Shown here: positions 3,171-54,566 of the stretch, one piece after another
How the letters are laid out: the number at the start of each line of letters is the position of its first letter
Numbering within the stretch: the first letter of the stretch is position 1
NCBI GenBank assembly: GCA_029964075.1
Contig: CM057138.1
Coordinates: 12,704,932 to 12,768,931, forward strand
DNA from: Patiria pectinifera
Taxonomy: Eukaryota; Echinodermata; Asteroidea; Valvatida; Asterinidae
Direction: 5' to 3'
DNA: 64,000 bases
Notes under the pieces: model-generated
Seen by the model: the letters and a program-made list of their open reading frames with translations, nothing else
Told to the model about the DNA's origin: nothing
The model's database searches: none
Made by a program: the position numbers and the translations under genes

Positions 3171-3790
3171 GTACTTTCGGTCCGTAGGTTCGATAATCCG
3201 AAGGTTCGATAGTCCGACTGGCCCATTAGTCCGAAAATAGAATAAGGTTAATTAATCCAAAGGATCGATAGTCCGAATAGACGATAGGGTTCGATAGTCC
3301 GTCCAATCGACAATAAGGTTTGATAGTCCGAATAGATGATAAGGTCCGATAGTCCGAATTGAGAATAAGGTTCGATAGTCTGAATGGGGATGGGCAATAC
3401 AATTACTCAGTATCAGTATGACGACTATCGGACCTTATGCCTCGATTCGGACCATCGGAACTTCTTTTCGGCCAATAGAACCTTATTGTCAATATGGAAT
3501 AATGAACCCGACTTCTACTATTTGGCTATTTTTTCACGGACACTATCGAACCTTTGGACTGATTAACCTTTTTCTAAATTCGGACTATCGAACCTTCAGA
3601 TAAATGAACCTTCGGACTAATGAATCTGCCGATTAATGAACCTTCGGACCATTGCATCAAATGTTTGGATTAACAAACCTTATTTCATTTTTGGACTAAC
3701 GAACCCCCTCTTATGAAAATTGTGTGCATTCCGACTATCGAACCTTCGGACTAAAGAACCTTCGGACTATCGGGCGGCCCCCGTACTTTC
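3171..3790. mobile_element. Foldback-like element made of degenerate 16-mers
   Basis: Between 3179 and 3782 the left half is a string of degenerate GGTTCGATAGTCCGAA units, and the right half carries the reverse complement, folding about a centre near 3385. The 8-bp sequence GTACTTTC occurs exactly at both edges (3171-3178, 3783-3790) and looks like a target-site duplication. It resembles foldback transposons, whose inverted arms are tandem short repeats. The ORFs at 3384-3603 are repeat translations, not genes. Confidence 0.7.
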
Positions 3791-6297: not shown

Positions 6298-7834
6298 ATC
6301 ACTGATCTTCTTCTTCTTCATTCATTCCTTTTCATGATGACTTGATGAGCTGGGCCCAACTGTCCCTGTCGAGCATAGTGTTGGAAAGAGATGGACCACT
6401 CAGACCAGTTTCTAGCTCGATGGATGTTTTCAGGGTCATGTTGGGACGACCTTTTCGTCGAACTTGACTAGCTGGCTCATTATGTCGATAAACGTGACCG
6501 GCTAGCCGAAGGCGACGCTGTCTGATGGTGGTGGAGATAGGGGGAAGGGCACCATTCAGAACAGAGTTAGGGAGATGTTGTTGCCATGAAACGTTCTGTA
6601 CAGCCCGCAACAACCGTGTATATCAATGGATGCAGAGATCTGTTTGGTCAGGGTCCAGGACTCGCACCCGTAGAGGAGGATGGATTCTACTGAGGTCTTG
6701 AAGATCTTAAGTTTGGTGGTCTTGGAGATCGAGGATCTCCATACTTTGGTCAGTGCGAACAGAGCAGACCAAGCTTGAGCTTTTCTACACTCGATGTCAT
6801 GAGCTGTGTTGGTACTTGAAGTCATCAACTTTATCAAGCTTACTGCCATCTAGTGCAGTGACATCATCAGAGGTAGATGGGTTGATGACCATGTACTTAG
6901 TCTTCTTTGCGTTGAGAGAGAGACCAACGGACTTGCAGCAAGCTTCTACTTTATGGAGGAGAGATTCGGCATCAAGGAGGGTGTCGGCAAGCAGACTAAT
7001 GTCATCTGCATACTCTAGGTCGGATAGGTATTGGGCAGGGTGTCTACTACTCCTACGGCGGGAGAGGGTGAGACCATCGGTTACATTTAATGCTGTCCGC
7101 AAGGCATGATCCAGAACAATGATGAATAGGTAGGGGGCGAGAGGATCACCCTGTAGAACTCCATTGTTGACGGAGAACGAATCAGATTCACCTTCGGGAG
7201 TGAGAACAACAGCACTTGTATCCTCATACATAATTTTGATGGCATTAATGGTCTCCTCCGGGATACCGTAAGCATGCAGGATCTTAAACATTGTTGGTCT
7301 GTCAACAGAGTCAAATGCTTTACGGAAATCGATGAAAATGATGGCAGCTTCCTTCTGGTGGTTACGAATTTCCTCAATAAGGCGCCTGAGGGCAAGGATT
7401 TGAGATGAGGTTGAACGTAGAGGCCGAAAGCCACTTTGATTGGGACGGAGTATCTTCTCAACTTCCGGACGAATGCGATTTAGAAGTAGTCGATTGTAAA
7501 CCTTGGCAGCAGTTTGAGAGAGGCTGATTCCCCGGTAGTTGTCTGGGATGGTGAGGTCCCCTTTCTTTGGAACTGGGACGATGCCGGACAAGCCCCATTC
7601 TGGAGGGCGGTTACCTTCAAGGGTTGCATTGCAGAACCTTGTGAGATATTTCTTGAGTTTAGGAAGCCTCCAAACTTCAATAGGTATGTTGTCCAAACCA
7701 GGAGCCTTGCCAAGCTTCATTTGTTTAATGGCTATGTTGACCTCGGCTTGGGAGAATTTGCCAGTTGGGATGTTAGGGTTTGGATCAAAGACGGGATCAA
7801 TGGAGACTGGGTCATTGGAGGCATTATCACTGAT
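6298..7834 (-). mobile_element. 5'-truncated LINE with reverse-transcriptase fragment
   Basis: The element is 6307-7825 on the minus strand. It is flanked by the 9-bp duplication ATCACTGAT (6298-6306, 7826-7834) and ends 3' in a short GAA-rich tail beside 6307. It encodes the reverse transcriptase of a non-LTR retrotransposon: in order, KAPGLDNIPIEVW, NYRGISL, FIDFRKAFDSVD, the GVLQGDPLAP motif, and the catalytic YADD in YADDISLLA. The long RT frame stops near 6797. The C-terminal part then continues in two other frames (LLYGCESWTL near 6640, RLRLAGHVYRHN near 6480), so there are at least two frameshifts. The endonuclease half is absent because of 5' truncation. This is a dead copy. The C-terminal motifs recall RTE/CR1-type LINEs, but I cannot fix the clade. 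Confidence 0.9.
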
Positions 7835-7914
7835 ACATGTATATATATTGTGAATTATGGCTTAGATTTCAACTGCATAAACCATAGGAAACTCCAGCCT
7901 TATTTGCCACCTAC

Positions 7915-44961: not shown

Positions 44962-45870
44962 TACCAGCAAAGTACATGTTACCTCCACAAAATTGTTATG
45001 TACGTCAACTCACTACACTTGATATACTGTCCACTACTCTTCTTTAAACTGTCTAAAACATCATAAAGCTAAAATATCTAGTGCTTTTTAACATACAATG
45101 AAGTGTACAAATGTATACATCTGTGCATGTATAGTATTATTATACTGCGATATAACTACTTCGCGATTCGACGTCATGGTGACTATAATCACGTGCGTAA
45201 ACCTAGCTCAATGCAGTGACGAGTCAGGTTCCTGCCGCGCCGCACAGGGGCCAATTTAGAAGACATGATGAAAATGCAGTTACTAGTCTGTGCACGGCTA
45301 TGTGATCGATAGCGCTAGCATGGCTATACATGTATACATGTATGTTGTAGATGCATTGCAGGCACGTGCACTGTCAACTGGTCGGATTCGACATCGTAAA
45401 AATGCCAAGAAAACACAGATGGAGAAGGAACATTTTTGCAAGTTAATTCACAGAATTGATCCAGCTTGTGTATGTACATGTACCGTATTTTCAGTGTTCA
45501 AGAGTTCATTTTACATGTAAGGTCGCACTACTCGTACGTGTACATTGTATTTGGAGTGATACATGCAGCGTGTTCCCGAAATTTTCGACCGTAAAAACGA
45601 GGTCTGTTGGCCACGCCCATATGCACAGTGCATCACACACTTCAGAGTTTGGCCAGCTTCCCGTCTTGACAAGCGTTGTGCATATGGTGCGAACGACCTA
45701 AATTTTCCATTATGTTGTAAGAGTTATTGAACGTAAATTTATTGACAATAATTAAGGTAGGTTTTATTCACTTTTTGTGGCCATTTTGTGTAGCTTTCGT
45801 AGTGCAATGGAAATAGTTTAGGCCAAAACTTCACCCATTCAGCAGTTCTACTGTTAACAAAAATAATTTG

Positions 45871-46260
45871 CATACCGATACGTGATCAATTGTTGCAAAA
45901 AATTGGGGCTTACCCGCATTTCGCAACACAATACGCAGCAATGGTCAACATTAGGGGTAAAAAAAATTCAGCGCTTTCTTAGTCCAAAAAAAAAAAATAT
46001 GGTAATCATACCAGTACGTGATCAATTGTTGCGAAATAGAGGGACTTACCCACATTTCGCAATGCAGCACAATAAACAGCATGCAGGTACACATGCTTTA
46101 TTGAGATGTGGGAAAAAGGCAACCTCAGCAGTTCCACAGTTAACCCCCCCCCCCCAAAAAAAATGCATACCGGTACGTGATCAATTGTTGCGAAATAGTG
46201 GGACTTACAAAATGTGTACCCACATTTCGCAACACAACACAATTATACACAGCATGCACT
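45871..46260. repeat. Satellite unit A, first block
   Basis: Three units of a ~150-170-bp repeat with core GATCAATTGTTGCGAAATAG. The first unit (from 45871) is degenerate; those from 46003 and 46165 are clearer. Each carries an inverted pair TTGCGAAAT..GTGGG / CCCAC..ATTTCGCAA that can form a 16-bp stem with a short loop. Confidence 0.8.
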
Positions 46261-46289
46261 CATCGATTGTAGAGAGGAGAGACATATGA

Positions 46290-46550
46290 ATTTAAAGCTT
46301 CCGTATACGTGATAAATTATCGCAGTAACACGGTATCCAGGAATAGGTATCTCTGATTTCTGGATTTCTGTGATAAATTATCACAGTAACGCGGTATCGC
46401 GGAAGGAAATTTCTCTGATTTCTGGATTTCTGTGATAAATTATCGCAGTAACACAGTATCGAGGAATATCTAGGTACATGTATCTCTGATTTCTTGATTT
46501 CTGCGATAAATTATCGCGGTAACGCGGTATCACGGTATCACGGAAGGCAA
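46290..46550. repeat. Satellite unit B array, forward
   Basis: About four copies of a 62-65-bp unit containing GATTTCTGTGATAAATTATC and ending GTAACGCGGTATCG. The heart of each unit is a palindrome such as GCGATAAATTATCGC. The array ends in GGCAATTCAAGCTTCCGTAG, a junction sequence that recurs. Confidence 0.85.
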
Positions 46551-47424
46551 TTCAAGCTTCCGTAGTTAAACCCCCCCCCCCCAAAAAAAAAATAAGCATA
46601 CCGGTACGAGATCAATTGTTGCGAAATAGTGGGACTTACCCACATTTCGCAACAATTAAAGCACAATACACAGCATGCAGATGTACACATGAAATGAGGG
46701 AACAAAAGCAACCTCAGCAGCTCCACAGTTTCCCCCCCCCCCCCCCAAAAAAAAATAAGCATACCGGTAGGCCTATGTGATCAATTGTTGCGAAATAGTG
46801 GGACTTACCCTCATTTCGCAACACAACACAATATACACAGCATGCAGGTTTACATGCTTTATTGACATGAGGGGAAAAAAAGCAACCTCAGCAGTTCCAC
46901 AGTTAACCCCCCCCCCCCCCCCAAATAAATAAGCATACCAGTACCTGATCAATTGTTGCGAAATAGTGGGACTTACCCACATTTCGCAACAAAGCACAAT
47001 ACACAGCATACAGGTACACATGACATGAGGGGGAAAAAGCAACCTCAGCAGTTCCACAGTTAACACCCCCCCCCCCATTAAATAAGCATACCGGTAGGAG
47101 ATCAATTGTTGCGAAATAGTGGGACTTACCCACATTTAGGCCTACGTGATCAATTGTTGCAAAATAGTGGGACTTACCCACATTTCGCAACACAACACAA
47201 TATACACAGCATGCAGGTTTACATGCTTTATTGACATGAGGGAAAAAAAGCAACCTCAGCAGTTCCACAGTTAACCCCCAAAAAATAAGCATACCGGTAG
47301 GCCTACGTGATCAATTTTTGCGAAATAGTGGGACTTACCCACATTTCGCGACAAAACACAATACACAGCATGCAGGTACACATGACATGAGGGGGAAAAA
47401 GCAACCTCAGCAGTTCCACAGTTA
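46551..47424. repeat. Satellite unit A array, main block
   Basis: Six unit starts (core GATCAATTGTTGCG at about 46610, 46779, 46947, 47100, 47147, 47310); the 47100 unit is cut to about 48 bp. Units carry long C runs and the 16-bp hairpin stem. The ORFs on the minus strand here are repeat translations. Confidence 0.85.
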
Positions 47425-47690
47425 ACTACGGAAGCTTGAATTGCCTTCCGCGATACCGCGTTACTGTGATAAATTATTGCAGAAATCCGGAATTCAAAGA
47501 TAAATCCTTCCTCGATACTGCGTTACTGTGATAATTTATTACAGAAATCCAGAATTCAAAGATACTTATTCCTCGATACCGCGTTACCGTGATAATTTAT
47601 TACAGAAATTCAGAATTCAGAGATACCTATTCCCAGATACCGCGTTACCGTGAAAACTTATCGCAGAAATCCGGAATTCAAAGACAAATC
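47425..47690. repeat. Satellite unit B array, inverted
   Basis: Opens with CTACGGAAGCTTGAATTGCC, the inverted form of the junction at 46540-46565, followed by about four B units on the opposite strand. Confidence 0.85.
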
Positions 47691-48240
47691 GGTAACGAGG
47701 AAGGAATTATCTTTGAATTCTGGATTTCTGTGATAAATAATTCACGGTAACGGGGTATCGAGGAAGGGATTATCTTTGAATTCCGGATTTCTGTGATAAG
47801 TTATCGCGGTAACGCGGTATCGAGGAAGGAATTATCTCTGAATTCAGGATTTCTGTTGTAAATTATCACGGTAACGCCGCGGCGGGCGGGTATCGAGGAA
47901 TACGTATCTTTGAATTCTGGATTTCTGTGATAAATTATCACAGTAAGGCGGTATTGAGGAAGGATTTATCTTTGAATTCCGGATTTCTGTGAAAAATATC
48001 ACGGTAACGTGGTATCGAGGAAGGATTTATCTTTGAATTCCGGATTTCTGCGATAAATTATCACAGTAACGCAGTATCGAGGAAGGATTTATCTTTGAAT
48101 TCTGGAGTTATTTCTGTGATAAATTATCACGGTAATGCGGTATCGCGGAAGGCAATTCAAGCTTCCGTAGTTAGCCCCCCCCTAAAATACCGGTACGTGA
48201 TCAATTGTTGCGAAATAGAGGGATTTAGTGGGACTTTCCA
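47691..48240. repeat. Satellite unit B array, forward, with terminal A unit
   Basis: About seven forward B units, turning round head-to-head with the inverted array near 47690. It closes with the same junction (GGCAATTCAAGCTTCCGTAG at about 48150-48170) and a single partial A unit to about 48240. Confidence 0.85.
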
Positions 48241-52227: not shown

Positions 52228-53054
52228 TGTGTCCATAGAGCAAGGACCCAAGGAGTCAGAACTCTTGGGCGATTTACATTTTGACCATTAACACACCAAT
52301 CCCCCAGGAATGTCTATAGCTACAGCAGTGTGACCGCAAGCCTTGACCATTCAAAGCGTGAATGCCAGCGGCCTTTGAACATGATGATCATCGTCGCCTT
52401 TTTAGTTGGTAACCAACAACCTCCCTATATGCTGCATAATAAGTCATGTCACGTCGCTGCTCTTTTTTGAAAAATATATTTTACGACAAGATAGGTTTTT
52501 ACAACTGCGCAGTTGTTAGATGTGAGTTATGAACTCAAGTTAGCAATGTGCAGTTGTTGGTGCTTAAAAGCGTTATCTGTCCCTGTAATTTGGAAATAAA
52601 TTGGATTTCTTTCAGAGAAGTTTTTATGTATTTTCAGACATTTTAATTGCCAATATATCATTGATGAAATGTGTTTCTTGGAAAATTTCACAAGTTTTCA
52701 CACAAAAGGTACAGAGCATTTTGTTCTTCATGAAATGATTGTTCCAGTGATGTTGACCACATTTATATACAGTATCATCCAACTGCGAACAAACACTTCA
52801 AAATCATTCATTTTAGCAATGTATGACAACTGCGCATGCGTAGTTGACCACCACGGTACTGTCTACGAAGCCATGCAAACTCCTTTTTCTGGCATTAGTG
52901 AGCGCGGATCTCTATTGTGTCGAGATTAGCGTAGTGAGCAACTGAGCAAGCTGGCGCCAGGTGCTTTCTATTGTAGTTTTCGAGCGCGGTGACCATCATT
53001 TTACTTTTGAAGTCTTGGAGTACAAACTCCTTGGGTCCTTGCTCTATGGTGTGT
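52228..53054. mobile_element. 817-bp TIR element next to a splice donor
   Basis: The element is 52233-53049, with perfect 24-bp terminal inverted repeats beginning CCATAGAGCAAGGACCCAAG. The flanks share TGTGT, a possible 5-bp duplication. Its right end is only 28 bp from the exon 1 donor (GTAAGT, 53078-53083) of the nested gene. An internal pair CAACTGCGCAGTTG (52502-52515) and CAACTGCGCATGCG is noted. No protein; superfamily not assigned. Confidence 0.75.
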
Positions 53055-53083
53055 CAAAGTGCCAAAAATTTAACGAAACTTAC

Positions 53084-54550
53084 CGGTGATTTTCCCATAT
53101 TACCATGTGCTATTGGGCTTAGTCCAGTGATACAGTTAGGGGCATCCAACAGACTAGGCAGAAGAGGCTCTTCAAGATCCTCAGCCTCTTCCTGAGAACT
53201 GATGATGATAGCCTGTTGCAAGAAGGCTTCCTTCATATCACAGCTGTCATCACCACTATTCAGATCATCTTGTGCTGTTGCACTGTGTTGACTGACACAG
53301 TCAGGGACATCCGACAGACTAGGCAGAGGAGGCTCTTCAAGATCCTCAGCCTCTTCCTGAGAATTGATGGTGATAGCCTGTTGCGAGAAGGCATCACAGC
53401 TGTCATCACGACTATTCAGATCATCTTGCGCTATTGCGCTGTGTTGGCTGACACAGACAGGGACATACGACAGACAAGGCAGAGGAGGCTCTGCAAGATT
53501 AAAATCGTTGTCTGATCCACAAGCCAAATGCTGGATCTCTTCTCCATCTGTCTTTGTAGCCTCCTCCTCTACATCAGTCCCTTCAAGGGAAACTATCGGT
53601 ATGGCAACTTGTTGAGATGGGGCTTCTTGAACATCATCATTAGTACTGCGTTCGTTTTCAACAGAATTTGGTAAATTAGGCAGGAGCAGTTCCAATTCTT
53701 CTAGATCAACAAGAAAGGCTGTGGTGTCATCAGTAATGTGGCAGGGGATGAATTGGTGTTCTTTTCTCTTGGGGTTTACAGCCAGATTTTTTCCTTCAGC
53801 GATTGCAGGACTGTCTTCATCTGAATTTGGAAAATTAGGCAGGGGCAGTTCTGATTCTTCTAGATTGACAAGAAAGGCTGGAGGGGGGATTGAGGGAGAT
53901 GAACTTTCAGCTGCACTCCTCAAGCTTGTCTTGTCAGGATGTTGTGGTAATAATGGCTCCTCAGGAAGACCAGTGGCTGTCATGGTATGGTCTTCAGACT
54001 GATCATCAAAATCCTCCAATGACTGCTGGTCCTGCGTGGCTTCTCCAAACCTGTATCTATCACTGCCGGTGGCATCAGTAGGATGGCAGGGGGTGGATTC
54101 GTGTTCTTTATTCTTGGGGTCTACAGCCACATTTTCTCCATGATCGTTTGCAGGACTGTCTTCTGTCAGGGGAAATGGTATAGCCTGCTGGATCACATCT
54201 GCCTCAGTGCAGTGGCTTGGATTCGCATCTGGGCCATCCATGCATATTTTAACCTCATCCACAGTTTGATCAGTTGCTGGGCTAATTTCTCGCCGAATTG
54301 GCTCATCAACAGTCATGCAGATTGCAGCCTCATTTGGATGTACATCATGTACTGGTATTGGCTCCCCTTCAGTTACCGGTACCAAAGTGTGACTCTCCTG
54401 ATTTACAAGCTCCGGTGGTTTCTGCATTGGTACCAGTATTTGTCGCAAACAATATTTGCACATGTATATCACAACCAGTAATACAATTATGGAGAGGATA
54501 ACTAATATAATCACAAGTACAGGTACACCTACGCTGTCTGAAGGTGTCAT
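53084..54550 (-). CDS. Nested gene exon 1: membrane protein with acidic repeat tail (unrecognised)
   Basis: 489 residues up to the donor GTAAGT at 53078-53083. The start is well supported: ACCATG context, with an in-frame stop five codons upstream. Residues 9-31 are one hydrophobic segment (VPVLVIILVILS...), followed by K32 and R36, so a six-residue exoplasmic N-terminus and a cytosolic tail are expected; there is no cleavable signal. The tail (about 450 residues) is acidic, low in order and repetitive: AFLVNLEESELPLPNFPNS at 225 and its copy at 278; KNLAVNPKRKEH at 254 and a relative at 139; EPPLPCLSYVP, EPPLPSLSDVP and EPLLPSLLDAP at 354, 406 and 461. Most repeats step by about 53 residues. 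Continues into exon 2. Lies in NOS1AP intron 1 on the same strand. I do not know its family; a receptor-like or scaffold role is only a guess. Confidence 0.8.
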
Positions 54551-54566
54551 GGTGAACTCTTTTCAA

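Follow-up and report, generated by a model that had tools for sequence, protein, structure and literature searches.

A local tandem array in Patiria pectinifera probably struck by two copies of a dispersed foldback transposon with IS3EU-type ends

IS3EU elements usually produce a target site duplication (TSD) of 6 bp and have TA..TA ends, and the passages describing a fungal set give ends of the form TAYGG..CCRTA with terminal inverted repeats (TIRs) of over 30 bp (PMC12730594, PMC10045372). Styx, an element tied to IS3EU, is described with 6-bp TSDs too (PMC10853768), and a rule stated for IS3EU families is that the ends align over positions 1-11 (PMC4455052). A 6-bp TSD is also given for Polinton/Maverick elements (PMC10045372). 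Most foldback elements are thought to be Mutator elements, with exceptions (PMC4079207). For two oyster satellites, a link between IS3EU and tandem repeats has already been published; 'IS3EU' and 'foldback' both occur in that source, the latter in a reference title only (PMC8268682).

The window analyzed here is the whole stretch of 64,000 nucleotides at C10:12704932-12768931, and the genome searched comprises 613.5 Mb in 1020 contigs. An earlier note on this DNA had read one part of it as A units, B forward, junction, A block, inverted junction, B inverted, B forward, junction and A unit. The pattern was confirmed by coordinates (Table 1): A units run from about 45854, the last junction lies at 48151-48170, and a partial A unit extends to 48239. 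The junction described as shared, GGCAATTCAAGCTTCCGTAG, is present as an exact match at 46546(+), 47426(-) and 48151(+), i.e., two forward and one inverted. Two details were corrected: the A array starts about 17 bp earlier than had been given, and B1 opens with a 53-bp central spacer instead of plain B. TRF reports an A array with period 174 and 3.5 copies between B1 and B2, and three B arrays with period 61-62. Overall, the event appears to be an ordinary one, transposons in a minisatellite, and the element a less ordinary one, a probable IS3EU foldback. We consider it probable that a local A array was struck by two copies of B, a dispersed, non-coding foldback transposon of IS3EU type moved in trans.

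Table 1. Features of the A and B arrays (positions in the window).
Feature	Position	Strand	Remarks
A array, first three units	45854..46258	+	first two degenerate, third cut at 46258
B1, right half of B foldback element	46256..46564	+	53-bp spacer at 46256-46308; four 62-bp units, all forward; right terminus GGCAATTCAAGCTTCCGTA at 46546-46564
GTTAAA, right-hand copy of B1 presumed target site	46565..46570	+	5/6 to GTTAAC; left copy lost
A array between B1 and B2	46565..47426	+	includes truncated unit 47063-47136
B2 left target site duplication GTTAAC	47421..47426	+	empty site CACAGTTAAC in other A units
B2, complete foldback element, 743 bp	47427..48169	.	four inverted then seven forward units; termini TACGGAAGCTTGAATTGCC / GGCAATTCAAGCTTCCGTA
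B2 right target site duplication GTTAGC	48170..48175	+	5/6 match
Last A unit, truncated	48170..48239	+	–

The A unit is about 150-174 bp long and contains a 16-bp stem. All nine matches of a 121-base A query in a BLAST-type genome search fall in this locus, as do all six genome-wide matches of a 36-base A-stem pattern allowing up to 3 mismatches. Because very common words are passed over in the BLAST-type search, more weight rests on the pattern search as evidence that A is private to the locus. Ten A cores were compared, seven of them uninterrupted and three interrupted or cut. The stem pairs at 16/16 positions in two of the seven uninterrupted cores, at 15/16 in four and at 13/16 in one, and no two-sided (covarying) stem changes were found among these seven. 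Among four A units folded, two intact ones reach -24.8 and -24.2 kcal/mol (z -8.7 and -7.8), and the first two units of the array give z values of -1.9 and -3.0. The A units at 46135, 46898, 47055 and 47266 read CACAGTTAAC without B and thus provide an internal empty site for B insertion. A looks like a pre-existing local array that was the target of B.

B is dispersed over the genome. The B query has at least 252 genomic matches, the junction terminus 264 (at up to 2 mismatches) and the 34-base B end 253 places (at up to 3 mismatches), and the reversed controls of the latter two gave none. With two termini each, the 264 termini would correspond to an estimated copy number of roughly 130. The inverted termini are 19 bp long, are conserved over about 34 bp and take the form TACGG...CCGTA. 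Pairing of termini at up to 3 mismatches within 103 loci yielded 38 copies with both flanks; this set is not the same as the 55 pairs into which the 180 termini listed of the 264 were grouped. A 6-bp TSD is perfect in 29 of the 38 paired copies (mean flank identity 0.90), and at other flank lengths (2-5 and 7-12 bp) the mean identity in the same copies falls to 0.20-0.31, no length giving more than one perfect case. TSDs are imperfect in 9/38, and at least one of these cases, L015, reflects mispairing to an inner terminus; at the outer end of L015 the TSD is perfect (CTCTCC), outside the 29/38 count. The 38 copies are not all independent, the flanks of L032 and L037 being nearly identical, and they do not include L105 (CCTTAT). 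A piggyBac-type TTAA TSD, prompted by the TTAAC flank, was rejected because the family TSD is 6 bp.

In all 38 copies the arms are long inverted blocks of direct repeats around little unique sequence, the left arm consisting wholly of inverted and the right arm wholly of forward 62-bp units; an arm has between 1 and 30 of them. Polarity was read from the B-unit profile, using best non-overlapping matches of at least 35 bp; many short opposite-strand matches are seen before this filter, as expected because the B unit contains a palindrome. The central spacers are mostly about 50, 63 or 172 bp, some reach 319 bp, and L103 carries a long insert. B is thus a discrete mobile unit with a 6-bp target duplication, and it is a foldback transposon. 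The earlier note had proposed a foldback-like complex with tandem-repeat arms: the TSDs, termini and arm polarity of the 38 copies uphold this for B, and the reading of A, B and junction as one complex finds no support. B is, by inference, a non-coding parasite that is mobilized in trans.

Other repeats were observed at some B copies. The insert in L103 (1087-2022), about 940 bp long and by eye a near-perfect palindrome, is probably another hairpin-type transposon. Arrays of a palindromic CTAATTCGTTCGCACGAATTA with 21/63-bp periods lie near the B copies of L015 (2519-2891) and L016 (369-721), and the outer flanks of these two loci are similar, in opposite orientation.

The claim of hairpins nested at three scales, also made earlier, was overstated. 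The hairpin formed by the B arms is strong, the whole of B2 folding at -467 kcal/mol (z -26) with none of 20 shuffles as good. The A stem is real but shows no covariation, and the small palindrome of the B unit is unexceptional: in the two single units folded, its z values of -1.6 and -1.7 are not unusual for the composition. Rfam (E <= 0.1) gave six matches over the B2 centre, all to microRNA precursor families and all below the gathering scores; the best, MIR4374, scored 48.6 bits against a gathering score of 105 (E 7.5e-9). We read these as hairpin look-alikes.

The placement of the arrays in a NOS1AP intron was not borne out. The nearest PTB/PID exon, at C10:12704064-12704183 (-), is 749 bp away from the window; inside the window, PF00640 gave no match at E <= 0.001, and neither did two scans with PTB exon motifs. 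Elsewhere in the window, a 354-aa open frame at 6797-7861 (-) looks by eye like a reverse transcriptase fragment, and a 502-aa open frame at 53054-54562 (-) has, by eye, a hydrophobic N-terminal stretch and contains a 156-bp internal tandem repeat at 53138-53499. Tandem repeats of 16-bp to 55-bp on a TTCGGACTAA / TCCGAA theme occupy 3181-3769.

B was compared with superfamilies as they are described in the sources cited. It shares the 6-bp TSD of IS3EU/GingerRoot, its TACGG..CCGTA ends fit TAYGG..CCRTA, and its 34-base end exceeds the 30 bp given for TIRs of the fungal set. Polinton ends begin AG. For Polinton/Maverick the TSD length fits, but the ends of B are TA..TA and not AG..CT. A Tetris/Mutator-type TSD of 8-10 bp does not agree with B, which shows no excess at 8, 9 or 10 bp and 0/38 perfect cases at each length. 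The best reading is that B is likely a non-autonomous IS3EU foldback; no autonomous element was found, and the link is drawn from the ends and the TSD.

Several searches bear on an autonomous partner. Genome-wide, only two exact matches to the 19-base end continue inward with a base other than T, and one of these belongs to a listed B pair. No B-free termini were found in the loci examined, where all 90 distinct readable termini carry the B motif inside. The rva_4 integrase genes, which we take to be the IS3EU core, have 87 genomic matches. A distance check covered 74 of these, the other 13 being further fragments beside listed ones, and none of the 74 places comes within 59 kb of any of the 180 termini listed (of 264). 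A search for inverted ends with a 6-bp TSD in 4 kb of L104 returned no autonomous partner. The C7 termini at 17163213 and 17183597 were rejected as the two ends of a 20-kb element, as the flanks differ (ATTTAA vs TTCAAT). The L103 insert of about 940 bp and the L105 insert of 653 bp were rejected as transposase genes; by eye, the former is palindromic and the latter a tandem array. The rva_4 matches are concentrated on C7 (44.85 Mb), which has 38 of the 87, far above its genome share of about 7%; some of them are fragments of one gene.

Within the window, B1 is without its left arm and left TSD, and its right end is normal and followed by GTTAAA. Its central spacer is 100% identical over 53 bp to that of another copy and meets the A unit in a 3-bp GCA overlap (46256-46258). 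The right arms of B1 and B2 (250-base arms, elements of at least 500 bp) share 86% identity. Against other copies, the median identity is 91% for B1 (best 95.7%) and 88% for the right arm of B2 (best 98.4%, to L002). The central spacers of B1 and B2 differ, and each of the two elements is closer to unlinked copies than to the other. As their identity lies below the family medians (88-91%), B1 and B2 look like two independent insertions. The simplest reading is that they are separate insertions at one A phase, a shared origin being possible as well.

The steps of the proposed history would be as follows. An A tandem array would already have been present at the locus. B would have been mobilized in trans by an IS3EU-type DDD/E transposase making a 6-bp staggered cut, and slippage or unequal exchange among its units may alter the length of the arms. 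B1 and B2 would have arrived separately at the same GTTAAC phase in two A units, and a later deletion via the GCA overlap would have removed the left arm of B1 and part of an A unit. The TSDs in the window weigh against this history, that of B1 being lost and that of B2 matching at 5/6.

For two insertions to fall independently at a single phase of a unit of about 165 bp would be a coincidence unless the target is preferred. In a site matrix built from the 32 of 37 non-window copies with a TSD match of at least 5/6, GTTAAC scored with its flanks takes rank 6 among 175 positions, 3 among 187 and 2 among 154 in three A stretches; scored as a bare hexamer, it takes rank 26 among 175 and 30 among 187. 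The target preference for GTTAAC is therefore modest, which counts against the explanation that we favor.

A second locus, L105 (C10:9093600-9096268), offers a comparison. Here two B copies, one full and one truncated, flank an array whose units are about 95 bp long, and both right B ends and the left end meet CCTTAT at one array phase. Among the loci examined, only this one and the window have an array directly abutting B. The ~95-bp unit has 407 matches, with a long array in the L105 region and a smaller one near C10:7.97 Mb; among the matches listed, it is also found on C1, C2, C11, C19 and C22. Its occurrence elsewhere indicates that this array is independent of B. The two B copies are 97.2% alike, and because unlinked copies come closer to each of them (97.7% and 98.6%), they are indistinguishable from young siblings. 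More widely, C10:9.0886-9.1049 Mb is a long ~95-bp array with B copies embedded at one phase, and the spacing of the termini there hints that about 4.16 kb was duplicated.

Among other explanations, it is possible, if unlikely, that B inserted once and that the A array including B was then amplified by unequal exchange, with B1 and B2 as daughters. The common A phase of B1 and B2 agrees with this, as do the recurrence of terminus positions at about 4.16 kb at C10:9.09 Mb and the CCTTAT common to the two closely similar B copies there; the low identity of the B1 and B2 arms and their differing spacers, each nearer to unlinked copies, argue against it. A further proposal is that an IS3EU-type foldback lineage settles at a fixed phase of tandem arrays, with two subfamilies at the same GTTAAC in separate A units and the CCTTAT phase at C10:9.09 Mb. 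We regard this as rather doubtful; if true, the machinery would read target sequence or structure well beyond the 6-bp cut.

It is improbable that the A array arose from a B insertion whose flank was copied in the course of repair. TRF arrays do abut a B terminus both here and at C10:9.09 Mb, but no other examined locus has an array at 0-1 bp from B (TRF score cut-off 60; flanks mostly 300-1500 bp), the unit of the second locus is present on other contigs and as a long array among the matches listed, and degenerate A units lie to the left of both B copies. A repeat assembly artefact is very improbable: poly-C runs and repeats are difficult to assemble, but B2 has its own near-perfect TSD and an architecture seen in 37 other copies. 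That A and B form a single composite foldback transposon moving as a unit, as block symmetry and common junctions might suggest, is scarcely credible, since A is found nowhere else despite 264 B termini and the B2 TSD sits between B and A. The earlier note had asked whether A, B and the junction travel together; the genome search places A only here and B with the junction genome-wide, and this confinement of A rules it out as part of a mobile unit.

The insertion of two B copies into a local A array can be set beside known systems. Galileo (P superfamily), FB of Drosophila and TU of sea urchin belong to other superfamilies and have longer TSDs than B. The TSD is 9 bp in FB and 8 bp in TU. All three resemble B in having foldback or long internally repetitive inverted arms (sea urchin foldbacks: PMC4079207). 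The internal tandem repeats of Galileo hold additional transposase-binding sites (PMC4079207), and by analogy such extra sites could explain the accumulation of 62-bp B units. With arms of 1 to 30 units, B copies form a natural series in which the turnover of arm length can be followed, and an internal empty site is provided by the A array.

As described in the passages cited, IS3EU/GingerRoot elements are like B in their 6-bp TSD, TA..TA ends and TIRs of over 30 bp (PMC12730594, PMC10045372); B differs in that no coding sequence was seen and in its foldback arms of tandem 62-bp units. If the ends and TSDs of B are those of IS3EU, the foldback form would have arisen again in another superfamily. 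The oyster satellites CgiSat35 and CgiSat47 are likewise tandem repeats annotated as DNA/IS3EU, whereas their units are 690 and 129 bp and the table passage on them shows no foldback structure, ends or TSD (PMC8268682). Tetris of Drosophila virilis, as portrayed in its source, is like B a non-autonomous foldback element with TIRs of tandem repeats, no transposase found and a link to satellite DNA; unlike B, it has a 220-bp unit, a flanking domain outside the repeats and an 8-10 bp TSD, and it is assigned to Mutator (PMC4079207). In Tetris the element's own units became a satellite (PMC4079207), whereas here satellite A is an unrelated target.
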